Part shown: piece by piece, positions 16,052 through 38,580 of the stretch
How positions within the stretch are numbered: the stretch's first letter is position 1
Layout of the letters: each line of letters opens with the position of its first letter
Notes under the pieces: generated by a model
Told to the model about the DNA's origin: nothing
Databases searched by the model: none
What the model saw: the letters and a program-made list of their open reading frames with translations, nothing else
Translations under genes and position numbers: made by a program
NCBI GenBank assembly: GCA_021296255.1
Contig: JAGWAU010000047.1
Coordinates: 1-49,125, forward strand
Length of the DNA: 49,125 nucleotides
Source of the DNA: Alphaproteobacteria bacterium
GTDB lineage: Bacteria > Pseudomonadota > Alphaproteobacteria > UBA2966
Direction: 5' to 3'

Positions 16052-17395
16052 CTACAGAGGTTGCTTCGTGTAATCGTATTCGGGCTCGTACAGGGAATCC
16101 TCGATCGAGGTCTTGTGTACGACCTTCAACCTCTGATTCTCGACTAGAGAAATATACTGTTCCGCGTGGGCTTGGTGGCTTCCGCCCCGGAACAGCTTGT
16201 GGCCCTGAGGGTGCTCGATCCCTTCATTGAACCAGCGGATGTTCTCGAGCGTCTCGATGAATGCCGCTTTGTCCTTCGCCGTGGGATCCACGTAGCCGCT
16301 CTGCTCCACCGTCTGCTTGATGGCGAAGAGCGTTTCCCAGCAGCCGAACATGTGCGAGGCATAGGCAGTGTCCTTGGGGTCGTCCACGTAGGTGCCGGTA
16401 TCCGTCATGCCCACCTTCTGGCGGTAAAAGTCGGCAGCCCGGGTCGGCAGGCCGTCGGCGTAGCGTGGAAAGCCTTCCCAAAAATACGTGCCCTCCAGGA
16501 ACTCCAGGCCGGGGCTCGCGATGTTGACGCCTTCCAGCGAGTCAATGAAGCCGAAGATTTGCGGCCGGTTGTTGCCGAAATGCTCGCCCATCTCGCGCAC
16601 GAAGGTCAGAACACCGGGACCCACCATGACGTGGTAGAGCAGTTCCGTATCCGACGGGATGCGTGGGAAGTATTTGGTGAACGATGATTCCCTGGGTGGA
16701 ATCGGGATGAGTTCTTTCATCTCCGCGCCATTGGCCTTCACGGCCGCTCCGAAGTAGTCCCTGTGAGCATAGCCAAAGGCATAGTCCGGGAAGATCATGG
16801 TCACCTTCTTGCCGAGCTTGTCCAGGACCCATTTGGCGATAGCGGTCATCTGCGAGCGCACGTCGGAGGTGCCGGCCTGGAACACGTAGCGACTGAACTG
16901 CCCGTTGGGAACCGCCGGGGTCTCACTGACCACAAAGTACGGCATCTTCAATTCGCCGGCACGCGGCGCCGAGCCGATCACGACGTGCGAGAACAGCGTG
17001 CCGAAAACGAAATCGACCTTGTGCAGGTTCGCGAACTTCTCGACGACCTCGGCCCCGCGCTTGGGATCGGTACCGTCGTCTTCGACGATCAGCTCGATCG
17101 GCCGGCCGCCGATGCCGCCGGTCTCGTTGATCAGTTTCACCGCAGCCTTGGTGGTGCGCTCGTACCAGCGTCCGTATCCGGCGCCGATTCCGGTTCGGTG
17201 CGCCTGGAATCCGAGCTTGAGAGGCTTGTCAGTCGCCGAAGCCGCCCGGGGCGTGAAGGGACTTGGGATGATGCCGCTGACGAGTCCGCCAGCCGCCGCG
17301 CCACTCGCCAGGGCGGCGCCTTTGAACAATCCGCGTCGGGAGACACCCTGACGACGCAGTTGGGTTGTCTTGTTGTCGGTCTCTTTCTTGGTCAT
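16052..17395 (-). CDS. Liv-type ABC transporter substrate-binding protein, Tat-exported
   Basis: Periplasmic binding protein of 447 residues, peripla_BP_6 type. The N-terminus has a twin-arginine signal: SRRGLFK at residues 19-25, then an Ala/Gly-rich hydrophobic stretch to about residue 45 and a likely cleavage near AASA (51-54). The mature part starts LKLGFQAHRTG and contains LINETGGIGGRPIELIVEDDGTDP (about residues 91-114), typical of Leu/Ile/Val-binding-protein relatives. Members bind amino acids, amides, urea or aromatic acids. The ATG at 17395 follows GGAGGA with an 8-base gap. It lies directly between the membrane protein and the livHMGF block. A nicotinate, nicotinamide or other ring-acid ligand is a context guess only. 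Confidence 0.9.
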   Translation of the reverse strand: MTKKETDNKTTQLRRQGVSRRGLFKGAALASGAAAGGLVSGIIPSPFTPRAASATDKPLKLGFQAHRTGIGAGYGRWYERTTKAAVKLINETGGIGGRPIELIVEDDGTDPKRGAEVVEKFANLHKVDFVFGTLFSHVVIGSAPRAGELKMPYFVVSETPAVPNGQFSRYVFQAGTSDVRSQMTAIAKWVLDKLGKKVTMIFPDYAFGYAHRDYFGAAVKANGAEMKELIPIPPRESSFTKYFPRIPSDTELLYHVMVGPGVLTFVREMGEHFGNNRPQIFGFIDSLEGVNIASPGLEFLEGTYFWEGFPRYADGLPTRAADFYRQKVGMTDTGTYVDDPKDTAYASHMFGCWETLFAIKQTVEQSGYVDPTAKDKAAFIETLENIRWFNEGIEHPQGHKLFRGGSHQAHAEQYISLVENQRLKVVHKTSIEDSLYEPEYDYTKQPL

Positions 17396-17519
17396 CGCTG
17401 CATCCTCCGCGCAGAACGTGAGCTGTCGTTCACGACGCTCGAACGGTAACACGATGGGAGCGACGCGCCAAGTTCGCTCATTGGTTACTCGTGAGAATTT
17501 TCGTACATTTATCAGCTAC

Positions 17520-18956
17520 TTACCCGGCAGCCGGCGTCGACAACAGCCAGAGACCGAACATCGTGTAGGCGATCATCAAGACGGTCATGGGAATCTGGCT
17601 GAGTACGGCGCTTCGCGGCCTCGCATAAAGACGGATGGCCAGGAAGTGGGCAATCGCGACCGCGACCACGTGAGCGGCCACGATACCGACGACCTGGAAG
17701 TTCCAGATCAGCTCGATGGACGTACGGTTCGTTACGATGGAGGCGTGTACGTGCATGTCGCGGGTGCCGATCAAGTTCCAGCCGAGCGCGAACGGGTCGG
17801 ACAATGCGCGCAGCGTGAACTGGCTGTCCAGAAGGAGCTCCGGAAGGTAGTGGGCGAAGTGGTAGCCGAAGGCGATCGGCGCGATCGCCACCACGAAGCA
17901 TCCCAGTTGCGTTCCGATCGGCACATCGGATTTGGCGAGCAGGTGTCCCAGGGTTACGGCGAGGCAGTACACGGACACGAGGGCGCCGAAGACCGCCGCC
18001 AGTCCCAGCGAATTGATTCCGATGAGAGCGGTCCGGCCCGGATACTCCAGCGGGTTTACGCCAACAAAGTCGAGCCAGAGAAAAGTTCGCGAGAAACCGT
18101 CGAACGAGACGGAGGAAAGGGCCAATAGGATGAAAACCATGCCGCTTAGCGGGAGGACGCCCACGTCCAGCAGACGCATGCCGGGAATGGTGATGAAGGT
18201 AGCCCGACGTCTCCCTTCTTCATCCAAGCCGAAGGGGGACAGCCACGAGACGATGCGGAAGAAGATCGAGAAGATCTCCCCATAGCGCAGCCAGGTCTCG
18301 AGGCCGAACAACAGCGTGCCCGTAACCGTGATCAGGAAATAGACGATCACGGCGTGCGCCAGCAGTGCCGGATCCTGCGGTGCGGGATAGACCAGTTCGA
18401 ACCAGGCAAACGCCAGGAAGAGGACGATCGCCGGCCAATATCCCGCGGCTTCGGGATACGACATGGGTGGGATTTGCCTCCAGCGGTCAAGGGGCGTCAG
18501 GGCGGTCAGCAAGTAATGCAGAGCCCTCCACGGATGGAGGAAAGCCCACAGGTTCCCGAAGATCGCGTGAAGAAACGTGAGCGCGACCCACCATATGGTC
18601 CAGAGCATCAGAGGAAGCGGATTGGAGAGAGGGTCCCGGTTTCCCAAGTAACCGGTAGCGATGAGCGCCAGGACGATGACGAGCGTGGCCGCGCTCGGCA
18701 TGAGCGGATTCCAAGCCGGCGCTGAGCCAAGTTTGCAGCGGGCGCGCTCCAGCGCGTTGAGGCCGGTCGCCGGGACCGCGGCCATCAGTACGAACGTCAG
18801 CGCGACGACTACGGCACCCCCGCCGATATACAGGTCGGTCGGCAGCAGCAGGATGACCCCGCGCTCCGTGGCATGGGCGAACGCGGAGGTGGGTAACAAC
18901 AGCCAAAGACCGAGCCAAGGGAGTATCCCTCCCGATCTTTGAATATGCCGAGCCAT
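17520..18956 (-). CDS. Polytopic membrane protein of unknown function
   Basis: Integral membrane protein of 478 residues with about eleven hydrophobic helices, preceded by a cleavable-looking signal ending in PTSAFA followed by HATERG. Several His and Trp residues lie in or next to helices, for example FLHAIFGNLWAFLHPWRALH (about residues 127-146), a YHFAHYLPELL segment (about 367-377) and RDMHVHASI (about 400-408). I do not recognise a transporter family with certainty; there is a faint resemblance, from memory, to membrane proteins annotated as fenitrothion-hydrolase-like. It follows HyuB by 60 bases and precedes the ABC binding protein, so it is probably part of the same catabolic unit, either as a second transporter or a membrane enzyme. 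Confidence 0.8.
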   Translation of the reverse strand: MARHIQRSGGILPWLGLWLLLPTSAFAHATERGVILLLPTDLYIGGGAVVVALTFVLMAAVPATGLNALERARCKLGSAPAWNPLMPSAATLVIVLALIATGYLGNRDPLSNPLPLMLWTIWWVALTFLHAIFGNLWAFLHPWRALHYLLTALTPLDRWRQIPPMSYPEAAGYWPAIVLFLAFAWFELVYPAPQDPALLAHAVIVYFLITVTGTLLFGLETWLRYGEIFSIFFRIVSWLSPFGLDEEGRRRATFITIPGMRLLDVGVLPLSGMVFILLALSSVSFDGFSRTFLWLDFVGVNPLEYPGRTALIGINSLGLAAVFGALVSVYCLAVTLGHLLAKSDVPIGTQLGCFVVAIAPIAFGYHFAHYLPELLLDSQFTLRALSDPFALGWNLIGTRDMHVHASIVTNRTSIELIWNFQVVGIVAAHVVAVAIAHFLAIRLYARPRSAVLSQIPMTVLMIAYTMFGLWLLSTPAAG

Positions 18957-19016
18957 TGGCGTTCTCTCTTTTTCATGGGACGAAGAGCCCCGATGGCTCG
19001 AACGTCTTCCCCTCCC

Positions 19017-20768
19017 CTACTCCGCCGCACGAGCGGTTACACGGCGTTCGGCCCGGAGCTTCTCGGTGGCAGCCGCATCCAGAGCATCCGCCGACAGCAC
19101 AACGCCGTAGAGTTCGGCGGCCTGCTCGACCGTGTAATAGCCGCGGCTTACGTCGTCGCGCACGAGTTCAGGATCGCGGTCGAGCGGATCGCCATAGCCG
19201 CCGCCGCCCGGCGTCGACACGCGGACGCGGTCGCCCGCCGAGATATGGATGTCCTGCTCCTTGGACAGGTGTGGCGGAATATGGGTCTTGCCGTTGCGGG
19301 TTACGCGGACCTTATTGACGTCGCCGTCCGAGCCGCCCAGCACACCTTGGGGACCGGTGCGCCCGTGATCCATGACGAAGGAGGCCCTGGCCTCTCCGCG
19401 CCGCAATGTCACCTCGTAGTTGATGCCGAAGCCGCCGCGTCGTTTGCCGGCCCCGCCGGAGCCCTCGTGCAGCGAGTACTCCTCGAACAGCACGGGGTAG
19501 CGCTGTTCCACGATCTCGACCGGCTGGGTCTTGGAGATGCCGATGGTAGAGCAGCCGTTCGAGATGCCGTCGGCGTCGGCGTTTCCGCCATACCCGCCAC
19601 CGCTCAACAGATACATGATGTAGCTGCGATCCTCCTCGGGGTCGTAACCGCCCAGCGCGAAGTTGCCGCTCGTGCCTGCAGGCGCGGCGAACAGGAGATC
19701 GGGCAACGCCGGAGTCAGGGCGGCGAACACCGACTCCGCAATGCGTTGACTCACTTCGGCCGCGCAACCGGAGACCGGACGCGGATACTCGGCATAGAGA
19801 AAAGTGCCTTTCGGATCTTCGATGTGAAGCGGCGCGTAAGTTCCGGCGTTGATCGGAACTTCGGGAAAGATGTGCTTGACCGCGAGATAGATAGCGGATC
19901 GCGTGGTGGCGATTACGCTGTTCATGGGGCCGAGACACGGTGGACTCGAGTCCGACATATCGAAGTAGAGATCCGTGTCGGTCTTGCGGATCTTCATGTC
20001 GATCTCGAGTGGTTCGTCAACGACTCCGTCGGAGTCGACGTACGCCACGCCGTGGTACTCGCCGTCGGGAATCGTCGCGATCTTGGTCCGCATCTGCCGT
20101 TCCGCCCGCGCGCGCAGTTCGACGATGCATTCGTCGACGGTGTCCTTCCCGTAGCGGTCGAGCAGGGCCGTAAAACGCCGCTCGCCGACGGTCAGTGCCG
20201 CGGCCTGTGCCTTGATGTCACCGATGCGCTGATCCGCCAATCGGATATTCGAGAAGATGATCTCCATGATCTCCTCGTCCATCACGCCTTCCTTGAACAG
20301 CTTGACCGGCGGCAGCCGCAGTCCTTCCTGCTCAACCTCCGTGGCGTTGGCGGAGAAGCCGCCGGGCACGCCCCCGCCCGTGTCCGGCCAGTGCCCCGTG
20401 TTGGAGAGCCAGGCATACATCTCACCCTCGTAGAAGAACGGCTTGTTGAAGCGCACGTCCATCAGATGCGTGCCGCCAAGATAGGGATCGTTGACGATAT
20501 ACATATCGTCCGGCTTCAGGTCCTTGGCGCGCTCGATGACCTCCCGCGTGCCGAACTGCATGGTACCCACGAAGACCGGCAGGCCGAGTTCTCCCTGGGC
20601 GATCAGGTCGCCCGTATCCTTGTGATAGATGCCGTCGGATCGGTCCAGGGCTTCGGATATGACCGGGCTGAAGGCGGAACGCACGAAGGCCAGATCCATC
20701 TCATTGCAGACCTGTTGCAGACCGCTTTGGATCACGGCGAGAGTCACGGGGTCGATAGTCGATGTCAT
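19017..20768 (-). CDS. hyuB: Hydantoinase B / oxoprolinase family protein (HyuB), locus 1
   Basis: Protein of 583 residues, the beta partner of the ATP-dependent hydantoinase/5-oxoprolinase/carboxylase superfamily. Typical features are the DPVTLAVIQSGLQQVCNEM start, FVGTMQFGTREVIERA, IVNDPYLGGTHLMDVRF (about residues 86-102, a conserved metal or active-site stretch), GHWPDTGGGVPGGF, and a Gly-rich C-terminal part with EGSGGAGKRRGGFG and TPGGGGYGDP. The ATG at 20768 overlaps the hyuA stop by 4 bases (ATGA). With HyuA it would hydrolyse or carboxylate a cyclic or linear amide, lactam or ketone at the cost of ATP. In this operon the lactam made by 6-hydroxynicotinate reduction is an attractive substrate, but this is inferred. 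Confidence 0.92.
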   Translation of the reverse strand: MTSTIDPVTLAVIQSGLQQVCNEMDLAFVRSAFSPVISEALDRSDGIYHKDTGDLIAQGELGLPVFVGTMQFGTREVIERAKDLKPDDMYIVNDPYLGGTHLMDVRFNKPFFYEGEMYAWLSNTGHWPDTGGGVPGGFSANATEVEQEGLRLPPVKLFKEGVMDEEIMEIIFSNIRLADQRIGDIKAQAAALTVGERRFTALLDRYGKDTVDECIVELRARAERQMRTKIATIPDGEYHGVAYVDSDGVVDEPLEIDMKIRKTDTDLYFDMSDSSPPCLGPMNSVIATTRSAIYLAVKHIFPEVPINAGTYAPLHIEDPKGTFLYAEYPRPVSGCAAEVSQRIAESVFAALTPALPDLLFAAPAGTSGNFALGGYDPEEDRSYIMYLLSGGGYGGNADADGISNGCSTIGISKTQPVEIVEQRYPVLFEEYSLHEGSGGAGKRRGGFGINYEVTLRRGEARASFVMDHGRTGPQGVLGGSDGDVNKVRVTRNGKTHIPPHLSKEQDIHISAGDRVRVSTPGGGGYGDPLDRDPELVRDDVSRGYYTVEQAAELYGVVLSADALDAAATEKLRAERRVTARAAE

Positions 20769-22828
20769 GATCTGGTCTCGTTCCAATCTCCGGCGAGCGC
20801 GCCGACGGTGACGACGAGGTTGCCGGCGGCGTCCACGCGTACGTCGCATTCTGGCTCGATAACGGTCGTCGTATCCAGTTGCTCGACGATCGCGGGCCCG
20901 CTGAATTCGGTTCCCGGCGGCAGATCTTCACGATGAAGGACGGGTGTTTCCTGCCACCCGCTCCGGTACCAGACATAGCGCTTCACACCCGATCCGTTCC
21001 CGCCGTCTTTGCCGCGGGTTGCCAGCGCGGCGAGCTCGGTGCTCGTTCTCCGGCCGATCACGGCGGTATGCAGATTGACGAGCACCGCCTTGATCTCCGG
21101 AAGATCGACGGCGAAGCGGTCCCAATACACCTCTTCGAACATCTTGCGCAGCTCGTCGCGGGTTGTGTTGGGCGACGGAACCGGGACCGTGAGGATGTGG
21201 CTCTGTCCCACGAACTGCATGTCCGCGTCGTGCACGAAACGCAGATCCTCGACTTCGATCCCTTCCCGTTCGATGGTCTCCCGGCCTTCCGCCATTTGCG
21301 CTTCGAGAATTGACGTGAACAAATCCATGTCGAGTACGTCGAGGGGGGCGTTGACGGTGTTGACGTAGTCGTGCCGCACATCCGCGACCACGCAGCCGAT
21401 CGCACTGGTGATACCGGGACGGATGGGAACGATGACCTTGGGAATGCCGAGTTCGCGGGCCAAGGCCACGACGTGCAAGGGGCCGGCGCCGCCGAATGCG
21501 AACAGCGCAAAGTCGCGAGGATCCTGTCCGCGTGCGAGAGTCACCATCCGCAAGGCACCGGCCATATGATTGTTGGCCACCTGCAGGATGGCGCTGGCGG
21601 CCTCGTCGATGTTCAGCCCCAGCGGTGCGCCGATGTCCTTTGAGATCGCGCCACGCACGTGGTCCAGCGTGACCGGCGAGTCCACCGCCAGCAGCGCGTC
21701 AGGGTTGAGTCGCCCCAGGGCGAGGTTGGCGTCGGTAATCGTCGGCCGCTCGCCGCCGCGGCCGTAGCAGATGGGTCCCGGCACCGCGCCAGCGCTTTCG
21801 GGCCCTACCTGAAGCATACCCGCATCGTCGATCCGTGCGATGGATCCACCGCCCGCGCCAATGGTATGGACGTCCACCATGGGAACGTGGATCGGCAAGG
21901 CATAAGCGAGCTCGAGCTCGGAGCTGACCTGGGGGATGCCGTCCCGAATAATGCCCACGTCGCAGCTCGTCCCACCCATGTCGTAGGTGACGACGTCCAT
22001 GAACCCTGCGCGTCCCGCAGTGTGGGCAGCGGCCATCACGCCCGACGCCGGGCCCGACATCACCGTGTTTACGGCGGCGTCGGAGACGATCCGTGCCGAG
22101 ACGGTGCCGCCGTTACCCTGCATGACCAGGAGATCGTTGGCGTATCCCCTCTCTCGCAGTTCTTCGGACAGGCGATCGATATAGCGGCGCAGGATCGGTT
22201 GAACCGATCCGTTGACCGCGGCAGTGGTGCCCCGTTCGTATTCCCGATATTCCGAGAGGATGGCGTGGCCCATCGTGATGTAGTCGTTGGGCCAGAGTTC
22301 CGCCGCAACTTCGGCGGCGCGGCGTTCATGGGACGGATTGACGTAAGAGTGAAGGAAATGGATCACCAGCGACTCAACGTCCAGGTCAAGTAGCGTCCGG
22401 CATGCCTGTCGCACACCTTCTTCATCAAGGGGTCGATACACTCGACCCTGCGCGTCCATCCGCTCCTCCACCTCGATACGAAGCTCTCGTGGAATCAAAG
22501 GTTCGAATACGCCCTTCAAGCCGTAGGCGTTCGGACGTGTTCTTCGACCCAACTCCAGCACGTCGCGGAATCCTGTCGTAGTTATGAGCCCGACCTTGGA
22601 CAGCTTCCGCTCAAGCACCGCGTTTGTCGTCGTGGTGGTGCCGTGCACCACGACTTTCACGTCCGACAGTGCGACGCCGGTTTCCGCAATCGCTGCAAGA
22701 ACGCCGTACGCTTGGTTCTCCGGCGTGCTCGGTACCTTCGCGATACGCGGTTCTCCGCCTTCCGTGTCCGCAACGATCAAATCCGTGAACGTGCCGCCCA
22801 CGTCGACGCCGATTATGTGATTTCGCAT
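20765..22828 (-). CDS. hyuA: Hydantoinase A / oxoprolinase family protein (HyuA), locus 1
   Basis: ATP-binding partner of HyuB, 687 residues, of the ASKHA-like hydantoinase A family. The N-terminal phosphate loop is GVDVGGTFTDLIVAD (residues 7-21), followed by VVHGTTTTTNAVLERK (about 60-75), and the second nucleotide-binding region has DMGGTSCDVGII (about 289-300) with GAGGGSIA and FGGAGPLH further on. Members use ATP to activate the substrate carbonyl. The ATG at 22828 overlaps the preceding UPF0280 gene by 16 bases. No small third subunit such as that of acetone carboxylase is present, so the pair looks like an oxoprolinase or N-methylhydantoinase type. The second HyuAB pair of the window lies 25 kb away in a different operon. 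Confidence 0.92.
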   Translation of the reverse strand: MRNHIIGVDVGGTFTDLIVADTEGGEPRIAKVPSTPENQAYGVLAAIAETGVALSDVKVVVHGTTTTTNAVLERKLSKVGLITTTGFRDVLELGRRTRPNAYGLKGVFEPLIPRELRIEVEERMDAQGRVYRPLDEEGVRQACRTLLDLDVESLVIHFLHSYVNPSHERRAAEVAAELWPNDYITMGHAILSEYREYERGTTAAVNGSVQPILRRYIDRLSEELRERGYANDLLVMQGNGGTVSARIVSDAAVNTVMSGPASGVMAAAHTAGRAGFMDVVTYDMGGTSCDVGIIRDGIPQVSSELELAYALPIHVPMVDVHTIGAGGGSIARIDDAGMLQVGPESAGAVPGPICYGRGGERPTITDANLALGRLNPDALLAVDSPVTLDHVRGAISKDIGAPLGLNIDEAASAILQVANNHMAGALRMVTLARGQDPRDFALFAFGGAGPLHVVALARELGIPKVIVPIRPGITSAIGCVVADVRHDYVNTVNAPLDVLDMDLFTSILEAQMAEGRETIEREGIEVEDLRFVHDADMQFVGQSHILTVPVPSPNTTRDELRKMFEEVYWDRFAVDLPEIKAVLVNLHTAVIGRRTSTELAALATRGKDGGNGSGVKRYVWYRSGWQETPVLHREDLPPGTEFSGPAIVEQLDTTTVIEPECDVRVDAAGNLVVTVGALAGDWNETRS

Positions 22829-23730
22829 GGCGTGCCTTTTTGTACGGGTCCAATGTTGCGGTACGCGGCGACATCCCGTCGCCCTTCGATGGCGTGTGAG
22901 CCAACGATCCGGGTTTCGCCCTTCAAGGTGAGGGCCGCCGCGACGATCCTCCCGGTCACCTGCATACTTCTGGCGGCATCGGCGCCCCGTTGAAGTGCCG
23001 TATCGATGGAAGCGGAGTCGAGAGTTCCGACATCGACCGTGACGGGGCGCTCGCCCAGGTCACTGTCGAGCTCGATGCTCACGGCTGGAACCCGCCGTAC
23101 CGCCGGGTGATCGACGTCGACGGTGTTGGCGATCAAGGTCGCCGCGACATCCGCATCCGCCGCCGTACGTGCAAGCACCGTGACACTATCGGCGATGCCG
23201 AGCGACATGCTACGCCCCTGCCAACCGCTGGTCGCGATGCCGCGTACCGGTGTTTCGAAGGAGACCTCCGCTCGGCCGTCCAGGGCGGGGGCATCGAAAT
23301 CGGACACCATGCCGACCGTGAATCTCTCACCTGCCGCCAGATGTAGCGCGATGTCCCCACCGTTGTTGACATACGCTCTTTTCAAGGTGCGATCTTCTAT
23401 CGCGGCCGCCAGTGCCGCGTCCGCGACGGCCCCCGCCACCGCCGCCATGGGGGTCACGAAGACTTTCCGATGGGGCCGAACCGCAGCGGCCATACGCCGA
23501 GCCACGGGTCCGTGGAACTCTTCCCGGATTTGGGACATTGGGGTCCGCAACAATTTGAGTTCGTCCACGAGCCGATGTAGTACGCCGTCGAAGAAGCCGG
23601 CCACCTGTCGATAGGCGGCCTCGACCTCCGGTTTCGCGCCGAACGCCTCGACGATGAGATCGATCGGACCGTGATGGAGATGCAGGCGGAGCCCGTCCGG
23701 AAGCATGGCGGACCTGGGTCGGTCCATCAT
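22813..23730 (-). CDS. UPF0280 family protein (ApbE-related)
   Basis: Protein of 305 residues in the UPF0280 family, distantly related to the flavin transferase ApbE. The diagnostic stretch is RAYVNNGGDIALHL (about residues 137-150), preceded by a PMAAVAGAVADAAL segment (about 94-107) and followed by VRGIATSGWQGRSMSLG (about 182-198). ApbE proteins attach FMN to Thr residues of target proteins; UPF0280 members lack a firmly established reaction. It sits immediately after the 6-hydroxynicotinate-reductase-like gene with a 4-base ATGA overlap, which suggests a maturation or accessory role for that reductase. This inference rests on coupling and family relationship alone. The start is ATG 23730; a second in-frame ATG follows directly. 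Confidence 0.88.
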   Translation of the reverse strand: MMDRPRSAMLPDGLRLHLHHGPIDLIVEAFGAKPEVEAAYRQVAGFFDGVLHRLVDELKLLRTPMSQIREEFHGPVARRMAAAVRPHRKVFVTPMAAVAGAVADAALAAAIEDRTLKRAYVNNGGDIALHLAAGERFTVGMVSDFDAPALDGRAEVSFETPVRGIATSGWQGRSMSLGIADSVTVLARTAADADVAATLIANTVDVDHPAVRRVPAVSIELDSDLGERPVTVDVGTLDSASIDTALQRGADAARSMQVTGRIVAAALTLKGETRIVGSHAIEGRRDVAAYRNIGPVQKGTPCEIT

Positions 23731-25259: not shown

Positions 25260-25262
25260 GGT

Positions 25263-28916: not shown

Positions 28917-28932
28917 CCGGCCTCATTACAAT

Positions 28933-28956
28933 CTAGTGTTCGTACACGAACACTAG
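28933..28956. promoter_or_regulatory. Operator: 11-bp perfect inverted repeat
   Basis: CTAGTGTTCGT at 28933-28943 and its exact reverse complement ACGAACACTAG at 28946-28956 are separated by two bases. Such symmetry over 24 bp is typical of operators for dimeric regulators. It covers the predicted -10 box and start region of the minus-strand promoter that drives the fused molybdenum hydroxylase, so binding would repress. The nearest regulator gene is the MarR-type one at 33720-34154. Confidence 0.8.
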
Positions 28957-28979
28957 AAAGGTATCATGAACGCTGTCAA
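28950..28979 (-). promoter_or_regulatory. Sigma-70-type promoter for the hydroxylase/hydroxynicotinate reductase operon
   Basis: On the minus strand a perfect -35 box TTGACA occupies 28979-28974; 18 bases further is TAGTGT at 28955-28950 as -10 box (a 16-base spacing would give TCTAGT). Transcription would start near 28943, leaving an untranslated leader of about 30 bases before the start codon at 28916 or 28910. The 103-bp gap to the upstream gene and the overlapping inverted repeat support a regulated promoter. Confidence 0.7.
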
Positions 28980-29019
28980 GGCCGCTACGCAACTCCCCGG
29001 CCAGCGAACCGAAGCCTGC

Positions 29020-31434: not shown

Positions 31435-31447
31435 CGTCCGTTTCCTT

Positions 31448-32959
31448 TCAGGCCGCCACGGCACCGGCTCCCTCTCCAGTCAGAATGGCCGCCGCCGCGT
31501 CCTCGACCACCGTCCCCTCGAAGAAATTCGTGTTCATCCCACCATGCAACTTCACTGGATTCGTGAATGTGAATTCCCGAAAATCGTCTTCCGAGATCAA
31601 ATCCTTCCCGACCAGTTCGTGGGCTTCTTTCAGGACCTCCTTCATGTTGGGAACATCCCAGTGCCCGATGTCCGAGCCGAGCACCGGTTTCAGCTTCGTG
31701 CCGAAGGGCAGCGTCTTCTCCGAGAAGGCCATGGAGGTCATGGGGTCGTCCGCCTCGCAGCCGAAATAGAACGGCTTCGCGAAGCGGTCGAGGATGTCCT
31801 CGGCCCTGGTGATGCCGGCCGCGGCGAAGTCGTCGAGGAGGGCGAGGTCAGCGTCGCTGGCCTGCCCCTCCATGATCGTCGGATCGATGCTCCAGGCGGC
31901 GTAGCCGAGCGACGCCCGGGCTGCGCCGGGAGAACCTTCGAGACGGCCCTTGAACCTGTCGCCCCCGTACCGGTCGAAGAGGTTGCCCAGCTCGGCGCGA
32001 TCGATCGCGGACGGATCGAACAGCGTGACGGCCTCTCCGTTCCGCTTCTCCCAGCAGCTCACGAGGCTTGCCAGAAGATCGCAAGCCCAGCCGACGCCGC
32101 CCTCCAGGATGCCGAAGTTGAGGTTGGGAAAACGATGAGTGATCCCTCCGAAAAACAGGGCTTTAGCGAACGCCTGCCCGGCTTCCGCGAAGTGGCCGAT
32201 CTGGTTGTACATGTAATTGGTCGTAGAGCGCCGGGTTCCGGTGCCCATGGCGAAGGTATGCGCCGTCGGCGCGATGCCCAGCTCCACGCATTTGGACCAG
32301 AACGGATCGTAGTCGTACTCGCTGTCGAGACCGAGAGAGTCGAGCCAGAAAGCGAAGGCGGCCGTTCCCGATTCCGCTGCCGCGACGATGGGACGATGGA
32401 CGAGACTGGCGATCATGGCGACCTTCAGGCCCAGCTCGTCGACCGCGTACTCCAGCTCTTTAATCGCCTCTTCGGGCGTGTTCGTGGGAATACAGGCCGC
32501 GGGGGTGATGCGATCCGCGTGGGCGCCGAAGATGTCCGCCACCATGGCGTTGTAGGCCCGGCATACCGCGGGTCGGACCTCGTCATCCGGTTCCGACGGA
32601 AGATAGAAACCCAGGGTCGGGTACACGATCGTGAAATCGAACCCAAATTCGTCAAGACGCTCCCTCAACAGCGCGGGCAGCATAGCGGTGGCGCGATCCA
32701 ACGTATGGCGCGTGGGATTGGCGAAAAACGGCGGTCGCGCGATTCGCCTCCGCCGCCGCTCCTCGGGAGATACGGCGTGCCACGCCGTGTCGTCACTGGC
32801 CTTCAAACGATCCGCGAAACGGGCCGCCATTTCGCGGCCCGCGATGTCCCTTACGAAGTCGAGGAGGACGGGATAGCACTCCAGCATATGGCCATCCACA
32901 TCGATGACCGGATGGTCGAGCGCGACGCGGATGTCTGCCGCGTTCCGCGATGAGGTCAT
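31448..32959 (-). CDS. Amidohydrolase 2 family protein (ACMSD-like metal-dependent hydrolase)
   Basis: TIM-barrel metal-dependent hydrolase of 503 residues. The N-terminal DVDGHMLE (about residues 20-27) gives the Asp-x-His metal ligands of the amidohydrolase-2 (ACMSD) group. Further possible ligands are in APTAHTF (His near residue 238), the RFPNLNFGILEGG strand and GSDIGHWDVPN near residue 442, where the Asp should be the catalytic base. Members decarboxylate or hydrolyse aromatic-derived acids. It is not an obvious enamidase (which belongs to a different, dihydroorotase-like amidohydrolase group), but a later step of the ring-opening route is plausible. The ATG at 32959 was chosen over an upstream extension of unconserved sequence; the spacing to the upstream MBL gene is 127 bp. 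Confidence 0.87.
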   Translation of the reverse strand: MTSSRNAADIRVALDHPVIDVDGHMLECYPVLLDFVRDIAGREMAARFADRLKASDDTAWHAVSPEERRRRRIARPPFFANPTRHTLDRATAMLPALLRERLDEFGFDFTIVYPTLGFYLPSEPDDEVRPAVCRAYNAMVADIFGAHADRITPAACIPTNTPEEAIKELEYAVDELGLKVAMIASLVHRPIVAAAESGTAAFAFWLDSLGLDSEYDYDPFWSKCVELGIAPTAHTFAMGTGTRRSTTNYMYNQIGHFAEAGQAFAKALFFGGITHRFPNLNFGILEGGVGWACDLLASLVSCWEKRNGEAVTLFDPSAIDRAELGNLFDRYGGDRFKGRLEGSPGAARASLGYAAWSIDPTIMEGQASDADLALLDDFAAAGITRAEDILDRFAKPFYFGCEADDPMTSMAFSEKTLPFGTKLKPVLGSDIGHWDVPNMKEVLKEAHELVGKDLISEDDFREFTFTNPVKLHGGMNTNFFEGTVVEDAAAAILTGEGAGAVAA

Positions 32960-33086
32960 GCCGCTATGCTTTCTTCCACCCTGGCCTGCGCAAGCCGCGA
33001 GCCTTCGTGTCATTTCCCCATGTCCGCCGGCAAGCAGTATGAACTGGTTGGGAAACCGTCAAGGTCGTCGGAGGCGCCACTAGCGA

Positions 33087-33689
33087 TCACGTATCAAATG
33101 ACTTGACCAAGGCCGCAAGGCGATCCCTGGCACCTGTCAAGATGGATACGCCATCCCCAACAAGAAGAGTGTCGACATCAAACTCCAATAATCTTCGAAC
33201 GTTTTCTTGCAGGCGTCGGCAATCATCCACCACGCGATCCGGCAGTAGGGCGCACGCGCCGGGCGGGTTGCCGATCACCGCATCGCCGACGATCAGAGTT
33301 CGTCTCTCCGGCCAGTAAAACGCCACTTCCCCGGGTGATTTGCCGGACGCGTCAACGACCTCCAACGGGCCGACGGTGTCTCCAATTACCAAGTCTTCGT
33401 CGATCTCGGCTCCCTCGCCTTGCGCGTGTGCGGCGTCATCTCGGTGAATTGCCGTCGGCGCCCTCGTCCTGCCGCGAACTTTGTTCGCGGCACGTGAGTG
33501 GTTCCGGTTGGTGAGCAGAACGCGGGCGACACCCTCGGCGGCGAGCTCCTCAAGCGTCGAATGGTCGAGTTCGACGGGGTCAATGCACAGGTTGCCGTCC
33601 GAATGTCGAATCAGATGGCCGTTGAAATCATATCCATGACGTTCCGAAAACCAGGTCCAGGTAAGCACGTCTTCGACGATTTCGCGCAT
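33087..33689 (-). CDS. Metallo-beta-lactamase-fold protein with degenerate metal site
   Basis: Protein of 200 residues that follows the metallo-beta-lactamase fold: a NGHLIRHSDGNLCIDP strand pair near the N-terminus, VLLTNRNHSR at about 57-66, SPGEVAFY at 118-125, LIVGDAVIG at 132-140 and LLVGDG near 175-180. In active enzymes these positions hold HxHxDH, SPGH and GHG; here they read NRNHSR, SPGE and GDG, so most zinc or iron ligands are absent while the fold markers and the bridging Asp136 remain. It may be a binding protein or use a different chemistry. It is 30 bases downstream of the MarR gene, likely cotranscribed. Function unknown. Confidence 0.8.
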   Translation of the reverse strand: MREIVEDVLTWTWFSERHGYDFNGHLIRHSDGNLCIDPVELDHSTLEELAAEGVARVLLTNRNHSRAANKVRGRTRAPTAIHRDDAAHAQGEGAEIDEDLVIGDTVGPLEVVDASGKSPGEVAFYWPERRTLIVGDAVIGNPPGACALLPDRVVDDCRRLQENVRRLLEFDVDTLLVGDGVSILTGARDRLAALVKSFDT

Positions 33690-33719
33690 GTTATCCTCCC
33701 ATCGCGCAGACGGTCCGCT

Positions 33720-34154
33720 TCACTTCAACCGATGCAGGAATTCCAGAAAGACCGCCCTCTCCTCCTCGGACAGAGGCGAGAGGGTCTCTCTGCTGATGCG
33801 TTCTCCGACCGGGATGACGCGGTCCACCAACGTTGTTCCTTCCGGTGTCAGGCGCCAAAGAACGCGACGACGGTTCTCGGGATCCTGTTGGCGTGCGATG
33901 AGGGATCTTTCCTCGAGGCGGGATACCACCCCGTTGATGGTCGCCGGGTCCGTGGCAATCAGGCGCCCCAGATGGTTTTGGGTAACGTTTCCGAGGTCAC
34001 GGATTTTGACGAGGGCAGCGTATTGAACGGGAGTCAGGCCGTCTTTCCCGATCAGATCGGTGAAGATTGCACTGGCCCGCTGATGCGCCCGGCGCAGCAG
34101 GTGACCGACCTGCTCCTCGAGGACGTAATCGTCTTCCGGGACCTTTTTGTTCAC
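33720..34154 (-). CDS. MarR family transcriptional regulator
   Basis: Winged-helix regulator of 144 residues. The recognition helix lies in DPATINGVVSRLEERSLI (about residues 68-85) and the wing in RRRVLWRLTPEG (about 94-105), with flanking dimerisation helices at both ends. MarR proteins act as dimers that leave DNA when a phenolic, heteroaromatic or acyl-CoA ligand binds. It is embedded between the nicotinamidase and the MBL-fold gene in the catabolic run, so it very probably controls that run; the 24-bp inverted repeat at 28933-28956 is the most likely target visible in the window. In Pseudomonas putida the nicotinate pathway is also controlled by a MarR-type protein (NicR), which makes the comparison reasonable, not proof. 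Confidence 0.92.
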   Translation of the reverse strand: MNKKVPEDDYVLEEQVGHLLRRAHQRASAIFTDLIGKDGLTPVQYAALVKIRDLGNVTQNHLGRLIATDPATINGVVSRLEERSLIARQQDPENRRRVLWRLTPEGTTLVDRVIPVGERISRETLSPLSEEERAVFLEFLHRLK

Positions 34155-34174
34155 CCCGGTTCTCTGTCCTCGGC

Positions 34175-34816
34175 TCAGCCGGCCAGTTCCCGACTATCGA
34201 TTCGCTCCACCCCCGCATCCGTCATCTGCTGCCAGGCTGCTTCTACGGAACCTTCGAGGTCGATGCCGCGGCAGGCATCGTCGATCACGATGATCTCGAA
34301 TCCTTCCCTGCGGCCATCGAGCGCCGAATATGCGACGCAGTAGTCCGTCGCCAGTCCCGCCATGAACAATCGTTCGAAACCGCGGTCGCGGAGATACCCG
34401 GCGAGTCCGGTGGACGTACTGCGGTCATTCTCGAACAGAGCGGAATACGAGTCGATAGTCTGTCGATAACCTTTCCGGATCACGAGTTCCGCCGAATCGA
34501 CGTTCAGGCCGGCATGGAATTCCGCCCCGGACGTGCCTTGAACGCAGTGATTCGGCCAAAGGACCTGTGGGCCGTAGTCGACTTGGATTACTTCGAAAGG
34601 ATTGCGTCCCTCGTGCATGGAGGCGAACGAGATGTGATCGATCGGATGCCAGTCCTGAGTCAGCAGCACGTGACGAAACCGCTCCATCAGTCCATTGATC
34701 GGTGCCACGACTTCGTCACCATTTGGGACCTCCAGTGCACCGCCCGGGCAGAAGTCGTTCTGGACGTCGATGACGACCAGGGTGTCGGTATCGTGATTGA
34801 TCGTGGGTGTCGTCAT
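34175..34816 (-). CDS. pncA: Nicotinamidase (isochorismatase-like cysteine hydrolase)
   Basis: Cytoplasmic enzyme of 213 residues that hydrolyses nicotinamide to nicotinate and ammonia. The catalytic triad is present: Asp17 in VVIDVQNDF, Lys115 in VIRKGY and Cys160 in GLATDYCVAYSALDG. Metal ligands Asp55, His57 (TQDWHP) and His90 (WPNHCVQGT) are also there; the Asn before His90 is usually Asp. The stretch HISFASMHEG and the YGPQVLWP segment are classical for PncA. Its place directly after the 2Fe-2S subunit gene (13-base gap) and before the MarR gene suggests it feeds a catabolic route and not only NAD salvage. Other pyrazinamide-like amides could also serve as substrate. Confidence 0.92.
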   Translation of the reverse strand: MTTPTINHDTDTLVVIDVQNDFCPGGALEVPNGDEVVAPINGLMERFRHVLLTQDWHPIDHISFASMHEGRNPFEVIQVDYGPQVLWPNHCVQGTSGAEFHAGLNVDSAELVIRKGYRQTIDSYSALFENDRSTSTGLAGYLRDRGFERLFMAGLATDYCVAYSALDGRREGFEIIVIDDACRGIDLEGSVEAAWQQMTDAGVERIDSRELAG

Positions 34817-34829
34817 GCTCTGGACTCGC

Positions 34830-35288
34830 CTATCCCGTGACCGACTCCACGGCTTCGATGATTTTCTTGTAGCCGGTGCAGCGGCACAGATTCCCCTTGA
34901 TGGCCTCCACGATTTCCGACCGCGTCGGTTTTGGGTTCTCTTCCAGCAACGCCGTCGCCGTCATGAGGAATCCCGGCGTGCAGTAACCACATTGCACGGC
35001 GCCGTGGGTGAGAAAAGCCTGTTGCAGGGGACTCAGCCGCCCGTCCCGTTCCAGACCCTCCACGGTCCTGATTTCTCGACCGTCCGCCTGGGGTGCGAGC
35101 AGCAGGCAGGAGCTCACCGGTCTGTCGTCGAGCAAGACCGTGCAGGCGCCACACACGCCCATGCTGCAGTCCTTGTGCGTACCCGTCAGGCCCAACCGCT
35201 CGCGGAGGATACCGACGACGGTTTCGGTCGGCTCGACCGACAGCGAGTGCGGCCGGCCGTTGACGTTGAGGGTGACGTCCACCGTCAT
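34830..35288 (-). CDS. Molybdenum hydroxylase 2Fe-2S small subunit (CoxS/NdhS-type)
   Basis: Iron-sulfur subunit of 152 residues carrying two [2Fe-2S] clusters. The plant-ferredoxin-like cluster uses Cys41, Cys46, Cys49 and Cys61 (CSMGVCGAC), and the helical cluster Cys100, Cys103, Cys135 and Cys137 (CGYC, CRC). It passes electrons from the Mo site to FAD. The ATG at 35288 overlaps the FAD subunit stop by 4 bases (ATGA), which supports it over an upstream Gly-rich extension. Together with the two genes before it, it completes a three-subunit hydroxylase of the nicotinate, quinoline or CO dehydrogenase class. Confidence 0.94.
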   Translation of the reverse strand: MTVDVTLNVNGRPHSLSVEPTETVVGILRERLGLTGTHKDCSMGVCGACTVLLDDRPVSSCLLLAPQADGREIRTVEGLERDGRLSPLQQAFLTHGAVQCGYCTPGFLMTATALLEENPKPTRSEIVEAIKGNLCRCTGYKKIIEAVESVTG

Positions 35289-36178
35289 CGGATCAGGACC
35301 CCCTCCCCCTCCCAAGTCCCGGAGAACGCCTTCATCACGGTGCGCCGCAGCGTCACCGCTGCGACGTGGCGCTTGTAGTTGGCCGAATAGAGATGGTCCT
35401 CGATCGGCTCCATTACGGCGAAAAGCCTTTCGCGCACTCGGCCAAATACCTCGTCGGAAGGGCGCACGTTCGTAAGCATCTCCTCCAACGCTTCCGAATA
35501 GACGGGCGTTTGCCCAACGCCTCCCAAGCCGAGCGAGATCTCTTCGATGCGTCCGTTGCCGGCTCCTCGGATCAGGCGGACCGCAGCGCTGATCGTGGAG
35601 GTATAGTCCATGGCCTTGCGCGCGGCGTATTTCCCGAATGCGGTGATCGACCCGGGTTTCATTGGCGGGATCAGGATCTCCTGCAGCAACTCGTCATCGC
35701 GAAGGGCGGTCTCGTAGAGGTCGACGAAGAACTCACGCACGGGAATATCACGCCTGCCGTCGGGACCTACGGTCCGCATGGTCGCATCGAGAGCGAGCAT
35801 GGTGATCGGGGGGTCGCCCTGCGGATCGGCCAAACATATGTTTCCGCCGATCGTTCCCTTGTTCATGATCCGGCCGCAGGCAATCTCGGCCGCCATCTCC
35901 GACATCATGGGGAAGGCCTCCGCGATGATCTCCGACTCCGCCACTTCCCGGTGAGTGACGGCGGCGCCGATTCGAACCGTTCCATCGGACAACCGGTCGA
36001 TGCCGTGCAGGGCGTCAATCCGCGAGACATCGACGAGCCAACTCGGCTCGACGAGCTTTTCGTTCATCAGGATGACCAGCGCGACGCCGCCCGCGATGAC
36101 GTGCGCCTCTCCCTTCGCCGCGACCAGAGCTTCGACGGCTTCGGCCGTGGTGCGTGCCGCGGTGTACCGGCAGCTCAT
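35285..36178 (-). CDS. Molybdenum hydroxylase FAD-binding subunit (CoxM-type)
   Basis: FAD subunit of 297 residues. Family features are AHVIAGGVALVILMNEKL (about residues 25-42), where the usual AGGT-x-L-x-x-x-M/L is a little altered, then the second FAD-binding stretch GTIGGNICLADPQGDPP (about 113-129) and a typical C-terminal YKRHVAAVTLRR segment. It takes electrons from the 2Fe-2S subunit and hands them to an acceptor. It overlaps the Mo subunit and the CoxS gene by 4 bases on each side, so the three are translated as a tightly coupled unit in the order L-M-S. Confidence 0.93.
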   Translation of the reverse strand: MSCRYTAARTTAEAVEALVAAKGEAHVIAGGVALVILMNEKLVEPSWLVDVSRIDALHGIDRLSDGTVRIGAAVTHREVAESEIIAEAFPMMSEMAAEIACGRIMNKGTIGGNICLADPQGDPPITMLALDATMRTVGPDGRRDIPVREFFVDLYETALRDDELLQEILIPPMKPGSITAFGKYAARKAMDYTSTISAAVRLIRGAGNGRIEEISLGLGGVGQTPVYSEALEEMLTNVRPSDEVFGRVRERLFAVMEPIEDHLYSANYKRHVAAVTLRRTVMKAFSGTWEGEGVLIR

Positions 36179-38580
36179 GCGCCGTTTCCGTTCAGGAGAC
36201 CGAGCATGTATTCGGCATCCATCGGCAGGTGGCTGGGACGTGCGTCCACGGCATCGGCGACCGCGCTCGCCATGGCCGCGGGTATCGGAATCAGGCTTAC
36301 TTCGGCGACACCCTTGGCGCCGTAGGGTCCGGTGCGATCATGGGTGTCGACGAAGATACTCTCGATCTCCTGCGTGACGTCCTTGGCGCCGGGCAGCAAA
36401 TAGTCCCGATAGTGGGGATTCATGATGTAACCGTCCTGGCGCACCACGCGTTCCCACAGCGCCTGACCGACCCCCATGGCAACACCGCCCTCGATCTGCC
36501 CTTCGGCACCCGTCGGATTGACGATCGTGCCGGCGTCATGGGCGCACCAAGCCTTCAGAAGATCGGTCGTGCCCAACTCCGTGTCCACCTCGATCTCGAC
36601 CAAGTGGGTCGCGAAGACATAGGTGGGATAAGGATTGCCTTCGAAGGTCAAGATATTCACGGCAATGTCGGGATCGAACTTGCCGTAGCCGCCGATTCCA
36701 TCGATTTCGTCGCCGATCAGACGGCAGGCCTCCTCGAAGGTCATGCGTTCGTTGCGGGCGATGACCGAATCCTCCTGCAATCGCACTTCTTCCCGCGGTG
36801 CATGGAGCTTGTTCGCGACGGCTGTCTCGAACTGCTGCTTGAAGTCCTGGCCGGCGATGTGCGCCGCGTTGCCCGAGAAGTACGTCGTGCGGGATGCCGA
36901 GGTCGGTCCCGAATCGTCGGTTTTCGTCGAGTCGCCGCTGACCACCCGGATGCGGTCTACGGCGATACCTGCGGACTCGGCGGCCACCATGGCAAGCGAG
37001 GTGTCGGACCCCGTGCCGATATCGGGTGTCCCGCAGAAGGCGGTCACCGTGCCGTCAGCCTCGGCGCGGACGCGCGCCGTCGACGGGTTGCGGACTCCAC
37101 TGTAGCCGATTCCATAGCCCAGGCAGGCGATTCCGAGGCCGCGCCGCCGCGTGCCGTTCGATTGACCCGCAAGGTCCTTCTGTCGCTGCTCGTAGATCGG
37201 TTCGATGGCGTCGAGCGATTTGAGGAGGCCGACGTCCGTCAGGGTTTGGCCCGTGCTGGTGTGATCACCATCGACCAAACCGTTGATGCGGCGAATCTCG
37301 ATCGGGCTCATGCCCAACTTGTCGGCCAATTCATTGAGCTGGCATTCCATCGCAAATGCCACCTTGACCACGCCGAAGCTCCGCATGGCGCCGCTCGGCG
37401 CGTGATTTGTGAAGACTGCCGTGTGGCGCACCCTGAGGTTCGGGATGCGGTAGGGCATGCCGGCATGGATCACGCACCGGCCACTGCAGATCATGCTGTA
37501 GGAACGGTAGGCCCCGCCATCAAACAGATTACGGACGTCGAGCGCCGTAATACGGCCGTCCTTCGTGGCCCCCAGGCGCTGATGGATCTTCATGGCGTGG
37601 CGCTTGGTCGTCGCCGTGAAGACCTCCTCGCGGGTGAAGACTATCTTGACCGGCCGGCCGGTCTTGAGGGTCAGCAACGCCGAGGCGCACTCGACGGTGT
37701 TGTCCATCTTGCCGCCGAAAGCACCGCCCACCACCGTCTGGACGACCCGCACCCGCTCCATGGGACGGCCCGTGACACGGGCAAGCTGCTTGTGGTGATA
37801 GTGAGGGTATTGCGTGCAGACCAGAACGGTCAGCACGTCGTCCGAGTCTACGAAGGCGACGCCGGCTGGCGTCTCCAGGAAACAATGGTCAATGGGCTCG
37901 GTCTCAAAATCGTTCTCCAGGATGATGTCCGCTTCCGTGAAGCCGATTTCGATGTCGCCCTGGCTATGATGCAGGTCGGTGATGACGTTGCCGTCTTCGG
38001 GATCGATTCTGACGGTACCCTCGGCCAACGCTTGTTCCGGCGTGATGACCGTCTCCAACGGCTCGTAGTCGACCTCGACAAGCAGGCACGCTGCCTCCGC
38101 CTGCTGTTCGGTCTCAGCGACGATCGCAACGATCGGTTCCCCGGCAAAGCGTACCTTGTCCCGGGCCAGGATCGGCGTGTCGTCCGAAATCGGACCGACC
38201 AGGAGGCGATCGTCGGGAATTTCCGCAGCAGTCAAAATGCCTTTGACGCCTGGTGCCGTCTCGGCCTTGGAGATATCGATCTTCAGGATACGTGCGTGAG
38301 GGTATTGGCTGCGGACGAATCGTCCGTAGAGCATGCCCTCCATCTCGATGTTGCCCGCGTAGCGGGCCCGGCCGCGCACCTTGTACAAGGCATCGTTGCG
38401 CGGAATCCGCATGCCGATGGTCCGCAGATCGACATCGACATCCGTTCCTCGGCCCGCGCGCTCCCGCTCCACCGTATCCCGAACAAGGCGATGGTATTCC
38501 GCCTGCCAGCGCGCCTGCTCCTCGACGGTTCCGAGCGCAAATTTTTCGCCTTCCGGCTCCTTCCAGTCTCCGACGGTCAA
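36175..38580 (-). CDS. Molybdenum hydroxylase large Mo-pterin subunit (candidate nicotinate dehydrogenase)
   Basis: Mo-binding subunit of 801 residues. It has a 50-residue N-terminal extension before the family start at IGMRIPRNDALYKVRGRARY. Cofactor motifs are GGAFGGKMDN (about 303-312), SGAMRSFG where relatives have GA-Y/F-R-G-F-G, and the catalytic Glu760 in GAKGVAEV (usual form GVGE). It should hydroxylate a carbon next to a ring nitrogen with water as oxygen source; nicotinate to 6-hydroxynicotinate is the context-based guess because of the nearby pncA and hydroxynicotinate-reductase-like genes. The start codon is TTG, set by a near-perfect Shine-Dalgarno sequence 7 bases upstream. First gene after a 150-bp gap, so probably preceded by its own promoter. 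Confidence 0.9.
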   Translation of the reverse strand: MTVGDWKEPEGEKFALGTVEEQARWQAEYHRLVRDTVERERAGRGTDVDVDLRTIGMRIPRNDALYKVRGRARYAGNIEMEGMLYGRFVRSQYPHARILKIDISKAETAPGVKGILTAAEIPDDRLLVGPISDDTPILARDKVRFAGEPIVAIVAETEQQAEAACLLVEVDYEPLETVITPEQALAEGTVRIDPEDGNVITDLHHSQGDIEIGFTEADIILENDFETEPIDHCFLETPAGVAFVDSDDVLTVLVCTQYPHYHHKQLARVTGRPMERVRVVQTVVGGAFGGKMDNTVECASALLTLKTGRPVKIVFTREEVFTATTKRHAMKIHQRLGATKDGRITALDVRNLFDGGAYRSYSMICSGRCVIHAGMPYRIPNLRVRHTAVFTNHAPSGAMRSFGVVKVAFAMECQLNELADKLGMSPIEIRRINGLVDGDHTSTGQTLTDVGLLKSLDAIEPIYEQRQKDLAGQSNGTRRRGLGIACLGYGIGYSGVRNPSTARVRAEADGTVTAFCGTPDIGTGSDTSLAMVAAESAGIAVDRIRVVSGDSTKTDDSGPTSASRTTYFSGNAAHIAGQDFKQQFETAVANKLHAPREEVRLQEDSVIARNERMTFEEACRLIGDEIDGIGGYGKFDPDIAVNILTFEGNPYPTYVFATHLVEIEVDTELGTTDLLKAWCAHDAGTIVNPTGAEGQIEGGVAMGVGQALWERVVRQDGYIMNPHYRDYLLPGAKDVTQEIESIFVDTHDRTGPYGAKGVAEVSLIPIPAAMASAVADAVDARPSHLPMDAEYMLGLLNGNGA

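Follow-up and report, generated by a model that had tools for sequence, protein, structure and literature searches.

The nicotinate fermentation cluster of Eubacterium barkeri, credited to work by Alhapel in 2006, reportedly encodes a hydroxylase, a 6-hydroxynicotinate reductase (Hnr), an enamidase for ring opening and a methyleneglutarate branch. The reduction to 1,4,5,6-tetrahydro-6-oxonicotinate (THON) was found in this organism and later in the aerobic Azorhizobium caulinodans. A cluster conserved in A. caulinodans, Bradyrhizobium, Rhodopseudomonas and SG-6C is described as comprising Hnr and the genes for the first three steps, along with a putative ABC transporter and two proteins of unknown function; the Hnr homologue of SG-6C is 42% identical to that of E. 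barkeri (PMC3511419, accessible portions). Here we analyze a stretch of 49,125 nucleotides from an alphaproteobacterium of the UBA2966 lineage, hereafter the window, which is a whole contig (JAGWAU010000047.1, our C33) of the 4.25-Mb, 97% complete assembly GCA_021296255.1. A compact run of genes on its minus strand, from position 38580 down to 12462, encodes an Hnr homologue (23727-25259), molybdenum hydroxylases, a nicotinamidase, an ABC importer and the two subunits of a hydantoinase-type enzyme, HyuA (20765-22828) and HyuB (19017-20849). We consider it likely that this island serves the uptake and reductive breakdown of nicotinate or nicotinamide and that HyuAB acts in it as an ATP-dependent opener of the THON ring, replacing enamidase.

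Compared by description, the window resembles the clusters of A. caulinodans (AZC_2804-2790), Bradyrhizobium (blr3818-3830) and SG-6C in its Hnr, molybdenum hydroxylase and ABC importer, with two conserved unknown proteins and a reductive THON route in an aerobe as further shared features, but differs in having HyuAB, no close enamidase, and an added nicotinamidase and second hydroxylase (PMC3511419, accessible portions). The shared genes would suit a reading of the island as an ordinary copy of this published cluster with nothing new to it, in which case HyuAB may be among the genes of the published clusters as well. However, the first three steps of the E. barkeri scheme include the enamidase, of which the window's genome holds no close relative (best match 27.5 bits and partial). 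The E. barkeri cluster shares with the window the hydroxylase, Hnr and the opening of the THON ring, predicted for the window, and differs in its anaerobic setting, its enamidase and its methyleneglutarate branch, for which no search was made here. The published aerobic cluster is said to cover these same first three steps (PMC3511419, accessible portions), and in one open-access collection of papers we found no publication that connects 6-hydroxynicotinate (or 6-hydroxynicotinic acid) to hydantoinase, or the degradation of nicotinic acid to oxoprolinase. An ordinary copy is very unlikely in our view.

The preliminary description of this DNA had set aerobic breakdown by oxygenation against anaerobic breakdown by reduction. 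This contrast does not hold, since the route is published for the aerobic A. caulinodans and 44 of 289 genomes of the window's class encode a member of the Hnr family; the reductive route itself is not new in aerobic proteobacteria, having been published for Azorhizobium and Bradyrhizobiaceae (PMC3511419, accessible portions). The element that looks new is that enamidase and HyuAB have replaced each other repeatedly, together with the predicted ATP-dependent THON lactamase.

The best reading of the island is likely a chain from nicotinamide through nicotinate, 6-hydroxynicotinate and tetrahydro-oxonicotinate to an open-chain acid, as the preliminary description had proposed. The Hnr family match agrees with that proposal, which did not support a role of HyuAB as the opener by any evidence; ours comes from the complementary distribution of HyuAB and enamidase. 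In the scheme that we infer for every substrate and reaction in the window's organism, the importer would take up nicotinate or nicotinamide, the nicotinamidase (34175-34816) would convert nicotinamide to nicotinate, and a fused molybdenum hydroxylase (25263-28916) would form 6-hydroxynicotinate. Hnr, as an iron-sulphur flavoprotein, would reduce this compound to THON, probably after maturation or flavin supply by the ApbE-fold protein UPF0280 (22813-23730). HyuAB, standing in for the metal hydrolase enamidase, would then open the six-membered lactam of THON at the expense of ATP, with activation by HyuA and hydrolysis at the metal site of HyuB. The products would be 2-formylglutarate and ammonia, and 2-formylglutarate would lose CO2 and be channelled via glutarate to glutaryl-CoA.

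Enamidase and HyuAB in Hnr genomes

We searched for Hnr, enamidase and HyuA in one and the same even draw of 289 genomes from the window's class and, separately, around the best 80 of at least 593 Hnr stretches in the GTDB collection, i.e., those nearest to the window's Hnr. These two sets overlap (for example, L055 is G176, and L072 is G117) and their counts are not additive. The labels "enamidase" and "HyuA" are identity thresholds, and in the class sample the best six enamidase and best four HyuA candidates of a first look were scored per genome. Among the 44 Hnr genomes of this sample, 17 encode enamidase (70-78% identity) and 26 HyuA (58-100%), none has both, and the only one with neither (G238) is 70% complete. 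On the assumption that the 44 genomes are independent, zero overlap would have a probability of 2.6e-11.

Of the neighbourhoods of the 80 GTDB loci (up to 10 kb on each side), 15 contained enamidase, 31 contained HyuAB, none had both and 34 had neither; many of these 34 are truncated by contig ends. Whole-genome searches, in which every candidate was scored apart from 5 of the 38 in one genome, detected no enamidase of at least 58% identity in the 31 HyuAB genomes and G006, and no HyuA above 46% in the 15 enamidase genomes and G003, G005 and G021. The 34 open loci resolved into 14 with enamidase (55-78%, two of them partial), 19 with HyuA (57-68%, one partial) and one with neither (L083); one genome, L096, combines enamidase with a HyuA of 47%, an identity in the range of paralogues. 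In total, these best 80 stretches comprise 29 enamidase and 50 HyuAB cases, none with both and one with neither, the same exclusion as in the class sample. That this HyuA and enamidase exclude each other across the Hnr genomes searched is an observation, as are the gene content, gene order and conserved catalytic residues reported below.

Because genomes are not independent of each other, we turned to a tree-based test. The Hnr tree holds 124 rows after removal of duplicates and of G243 and G042, which have no row of 380 residues; for the plasmid loci L117-L119 the ring-opener label comes from the locus alone, and for L065 HyuB alone was seen, at a contig end. In the best tree the two labels are interspersed; enamidase has to change 17 times, and supported branches force at least seven of these changes. 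Independent contrasts, which have no path in common, number seven on supported branches and 17 on all branches, and across these seven HyuA was opposite to enamidase in 6.8 on average and showed no difference in 0.2 (sign test, median p 0.016). In a tree of HyuA proteins, built with a simpler model from fetched stretches only and with long-branch warnings, the Hnr-linked HyuA form one supported clade of 51 rows (support 98, two rows from Hnr-less genomes) and other HyuA fall far outside, so that the identity thresholds are sensible. Three Hnr rows, L088 (a Bordetella parapertussis metagenome-assembled genome), L075 (Mesoflavibacter) and L065 (Chloroflexi), sit among alphaproteobacterial or SAR324 rows in conflict with their titles, which could reflect mislabelled bins or gene transfer.

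The exchange is also seen between close relatives. In one family (f105), G222 and G117 share a run of genes for glutaryl-CoA dehydrogenase (GcdH), a CoA-transferase, MarR, KorAB, Hnr, UPF0280, two AA_synth proteins and a lone molybdenum gene, and this run ends with enamidase in one genome and with HyuBA in the other; G222 has an extra ferredoxin-NADP reductase. L043 with HyuAB and L049 with enamidase are sisters in the Hnr tree (support 100), and in the family to which the window belongs enamidase is carried by G003 and G005, HyuAB by G006 and the window's genus. Nicotinamidase homologues are linked to Hnr in both types, namely in the window's genus (sister genomes G001 and G002) and L097 for HyuAB and in G051, G275 and G178 for enamidase; in G015 the nicotinamidase is linked to Hnr and the enamidase lies on a separate contig. 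A GcdH of at least 60% identity to a reference copy likewise lies near Hnr in both types (six rows, with L072 and G117 standing for the same genome), and the window's genome has a GcdH homologue elsewhere (69% identity). Nicotinamidase and GcdH near Hnr in both types argue that both lead from nicotinate to glutaryl-CoA. The pooled counts of nicotinamidase, GcdH and AA_synth linkage in long loci include duplicate genomes from the overlapping sets.

Hnr and UPF0280

The window's Hnr has 510 residues and is the single match to its family in the genome at E <= 0.001; it has no match in Pfam or NCBIfam and no meaningful one in the PDB. All 26 matches in plasmid records are 59-68% identical to it, of which 17 (59-64%) are annotated as 6-hydroxynicotinate reductase and nine are hypothetical or unannotated. 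It belongs to the same family as the Hnr genes that adjoin 2VUN-like enamidases and, in some loci, glutaryl-CoA dehydrogenase. The enamidase used as reference (L041), encoded beside an Hnr relative, aligns with the solved enamidase 2VUN, which we take to be the E. barkeri enzyme, over 383 residues (E 1.7e-108). Through this neighbour, and through the 42% identity reported for SG-6C, the window's Hnr is linked to the E. barkeri reductase indirectly. Alignments of 17 and 30 sequences, the window's included, share eight invariant cysteines (32, 35, 39, 49, 139, 198, 242 and 377 of the window's protein), which on sequence grounds would be enough for two [4Fe-4S] clusters. Nothing was concluded from the predicted fold, which is a poor model (pLDDT 69) with no Foldseek match at E <= 0.001.

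Genes for 2-oxoacid:ferredoxin oxidoreductases lie near Hnr in L043, L045, L047, L062, L072, L095, L110, G293, G200, G222 and G117, several of them together with a ferredoxin-NADP-reductase-like gene, and would fit a ferredoxin-fed reductase. In G042 (C1:2969799-2971264) Hnr appears as two adjoining matches in different frames within an otherwise ordinary cluster.

UPF0280 is identified by NCBIfam PRK04334.1-2 (379 bits, cut-off 290) and belongs to the Hnr locus in 78 of 81 cases, counting the window with the 80 GTDB loci, and lies within 300 bases of Hnr in 66; two of the three exceptions are short contigs of 6.5 and 7.5 kb on which it may have been cut off. Its structural model (pLDDT 90.5) is closest to the DUF375 structure 2o34 (Z 19.3) and matches ApbE/FmnB flavin transferases at Z 13.9-16.3, ahead of the next unrelated fold at 8.1. 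The best ApbE match, 1vrm (Z 16.3), superimposes with an rmsd of 3.0 over 214 residues, and sequence identity to these flavin transferases is low (14-18%). The Hnr of E. barkeri carries a covalent flavin, which makes a role in flavin loading attractive, and the modelled fold suggests that UPF0280 may mature Hnr or supply its flavin.

HyuAB as a predicted lactamase

HyuA carries the Hydant_A_N and Hydantoinase_A domains and HyuB the Hydantoinase_B domain, and the true start of HyuB probably lies inside the listed reading frame at about residue 30. In the caprolactamase CapAB, D41, H99, D102 and H124 of CapB bind the metal and D11 and D295 of CapA are needed for ATP use (PMC8453981, accessible portions). 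The window's HyuB has D69, H128, D131 and H153 aligned with this tetrad (via structure 6yra, whose numbering fits CapB), and HyuA has a DVGGT motif at 9 and a DMGGT motif at 283, matched to the CapA aspartates by motif and not by alignment. Domain families, ATP motifs and the Asp-His-Asp-His tetrad are thus shared with CapAB and the 5-oxoprolinase OplAB, both of which hydrolyse lactams, as is predicted for HyuAB (PMC8453981, PMC11033972, accessible portions). OplAB hydrolyses delta-valerolactam, which is a six-membered lactam like THON (PMC11033972, accessible portions). HyuAB may therefore work as a CapAB-type enzyme, though it is not filed as a caprolactamase and, unlike CapAB, is predicted to act on an enamide lactam acid. 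We interpret HyuAB as a predicted ATP-dependent lactamase for THON that replaces enamidase.

A different role is conceivable in which HyuAB carboxylates or hydrolyses a later intermediate and the ring is opened by an unrecognised enzyme. The superfamily does include ATP-dependent carboxylases, and three such structures (5l9w, 5m45 and 5svb) were among the matches of HyuAB. Yet the best solved matches, N-methylhydantoinase 7hk5 for HyuA and Hydantoinase 6yra for HyuB, outrank these carboxylases, exactly one opener is present in 43 of the 44 Hnr genomes, and enamidase and HyuAB swap in the same position. We regard this alternative as unlikely.

Several points weigh against HyuAB as a THON lactamase in a nicotinate island, and some of them lend weight to its competitors. 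HyuAB scores 538 and 346 bits against cut-offs of 1000 each for the caprolactamase equivalogs NF050156 and NF050157, which would suit a later-acting HyuAB. The same is true of one of the two subtypes of AA_synth (PF06684) in Hnr loci, which accompanies enamidase in 24 of 27 long loci and HyuAB in 4 of 53, so that the exchange may involve two genes and HyuAB may replace more than enamidase. An enamidase homologue of 37-42% identity is present in 6 of 32 HyuAB-linked genomes, and given the limited number of candidates scored per genome a co-occurrence of enamidase and HyuA could have been missed in the class sample. One genome (G095) carries enamidase without an Hnr match. Against UPF0280 as a flavin loader, the ApbE target motif D-x-x-[ST]-G-A-[ST] (PMC12052999, accessible portions) occurs in none of the 124 Hnr rows, and on this ground we discarded the idea that Hnr has a canonical target site for ApbE. 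The scheme also leaves a second hydroxylase and a block of genes directly upstream (38731-48406), both described below, without explanation.

Furthermore, 8 of the 289 genomes have HyuA above the search threshold and no Hnr match. Five of the seven that we examined (G140 was left out) fall in a sister clade, but two near-complete ones, G127 (100%) and G229 (95%), have HyuA that groups within the Hnr-linked clade itself. Since no Hnr match is present there to make THON, this HyuA clade is not strictly tied to that compound. Both genomes encode HyuAB beside a molybdenum hydroxylase large subunit (L212, 8061-14124, and L213, 5503-11641), G229 with a MarR gene and a PLP decarboxylase in addition, which would fit a lactam opened after molybdenum hydroxylation and possibly a second lactam pathway.

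These Hnr-less loci fit the notion that the HyuAB and enamidase types attack different pyridines and that the HyuAB type reduces and opens another hydroxylated N-heterocycle, in which case the window would not be a nicotinate island. It would also accommodate the second hydroxylase and second block of the window's own genus, whose conservation is not seen in other loci, and the HyuAB-type strains in the literature covered come without a proven substrate. However, the type changes back and forth between close Hnr relatives whose neighbourhoods otherwise agree, and nicotinamidase is linked to Hnr in both types, for which reasons we think different substrates quite unlikely and prefer HyuAB as the opener of THON.

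Gene order and neighbouring blocks

Gene families were assigned by Pfam and NCBIfam profile scans of the window's open reading frames. All genes that the preliminary description had named between 16052 and 38580 are indeed there and on the minus strand, and the importer extends further down (12462-15604); three genes had escaped it, namely those for a metallo-beta-lactamase-fold protein (33087-33689, PF14597), an Amidohydro_2 protein (31448-33013, PF04909) and a membrane protein (17520-18956). The run starts with a three-subunit hydroxylase (34830-38580) composed of the molybdenum-binding large subunit MoL1 (36175-38580; MoCoBD_1/2, Ald_Xan_dh_C), an FAD subunit (35285-36178; FAD_binding_5, CO_deh_flav_C) and a subunit with two [2Fe-2S] clusters (34830-35315; Fer2, Fer2_2). 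The nicotinamidase of the NamA/PncA type follows, then a MarR-family regulator (33720-34154), the metallo-beta-lactamase-fold and Amidohydro_2 genes, and MoL2 (29020-31464), a lone molybdenum subunit resembling CoxL and glyceraldehyde dehydrogenase. The predicted nicotinate 6-hydroxylase, a fusion of FAD, two [2Fe-2S] and molybdenum domains, ends 3 bases upstream of Hnr, and UPF0280, HyuA and HyuB come next. The profile scans confirm the families given earlier for the three-subunit hydroxylase, MarR, the lone molybdenum subunit, the fused hydroxylase, UPF0280 and HyuAB. From MoL1 (38580) to the importer's binding protein (16052) genes are spaced by -85 to +103 bases, an operon-like arrangement.

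The importer consists of a substrate-binding protein (16052-17452; Peripla_BP_6), a LivH-type permease (14723-15604; named by inspection of its translation), a LivM-type permease (13764-15446) and ATPases of the LivG type (13021-13965; ABC_tran, BCA_ABC_TP_C) and LivF type (12462-13100; ABC_tran). The listed LivM frame is overlong at its 5' end and the gene is its C-terminal part, with BPD_transp_2 at residues 277-539. The membrane protein between HyuB and the importer (478 residues) has no Pfam or NCBIfam match and recurs in nine scanned rows from eight genomes (L037 is G001) and on the plasmid locus L119, with both ring-opener types and in several loci with the same binding-protein and Liv genes as neighbours.

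Comparison with related genomes, as the preliminary description had suggested, bore out the core of this arrangement. G001 and G002, of the window's genus, keep the order MoL1, FAD subunit, [2Fe-2S] subunit, nicotinamidase, MarR (G002 only), fused hydroxylase, Hnr, UPF0280, HyuA, HyuB and membrane protein; in G001 the importer follows, whereas the contig of G002 ends there. The metallo-beta-lactamase, Amidohydro_2 and lone molybdenum genes were not found in the corresponding interval of either genome and are therefore not core; for the same reason we set aside Amidohydro_2 as a ring opener or decarboxylase. AA_synth is common beside Hnr, but we rejected it as a required part since the clusters of G001 and G002 have none; it has no match in the window's genome either, where control genomes were silent too and absence is not proven.

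The nicotinamidase passes the cut-off of NCBIfam PRK11609 (210.9 bits against 174), and residues 11-211 of its 213 align with the nicotinamidase structure 2wt9 (E 1.7e-78). It was described at the outset as having a full catalytic triad, and D17, K115 and C160, which we take to be this triad, are present, as are D55, H57 and H61, presumably the metal ligands. MoL1 matches the 4-hydroxybenzoyl-CoA reductase alpha subunit at E 3.2e-111 and, at E 2e-91, nicotinate dehydrogenase 3hrd_A, and its hydroxylase is an extra one conserved in the genus, in the same order in G001 and G002. A homologue of the fused hydroxylase, fused or split, precedes Hnr in most loci scanned and is missing there in some (e.g., L047, L072, L077, L095 and L102), and MarR genes recur near Hnr across loci. 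The Pfam scan, which was confined to the window, named no NicC/NicX-type oxygenase (6-hydroxynicotinate monooxygenase or 2,5-dihydroxypyridine dioxygenase) among the 40 open reading frames scanned, and Rfam at gathering thresholds gave nothing in the window.

The block directly upstream of MoL1 (38731-48406, minus strand) keeps its order in both sister genomes and encodes an ACD-type CoA ligase, an AMP-ligase, a luciferase-like oxidoreductase, a muconate-cycloisomerase-like enzyme, HyuB2 and HyuA2, followed by a UTRA-domain protein. The identity between HyuA2 and HyuA is just 38%. Beyond the importer, four tandem Rieske oxygenases (4652-9135, plus strand) lie beside a TRAP transporter (9132-12284; DctM, DctQ, and DctP inside the frame at 9807-12284), in what seems to be a separate catabolic block.

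Taken further, we lean towards regarding the HyuAB clade as a new ATP-dependent THON hydrolase and the commoner of two interchangeable ring-opening modules in the sampled genomes, with UPF0280 as a dedicated flavin-loading factor of Hnr that uses a non-canonical target site. If true, this would name the substrate of a widespread clade, in a superfamily where sequence is a poor guide to substrate, and would close the breakdown route for vitamin B3 in the many Hnr genomes without a close enamidase. It would also mean that a single step is served by two unrelated enzymes that repeatedly replace each other, one spending ATP and the other not, and it would tie the unassigned, flavin-transferase-like family UPF0280 to one partner.

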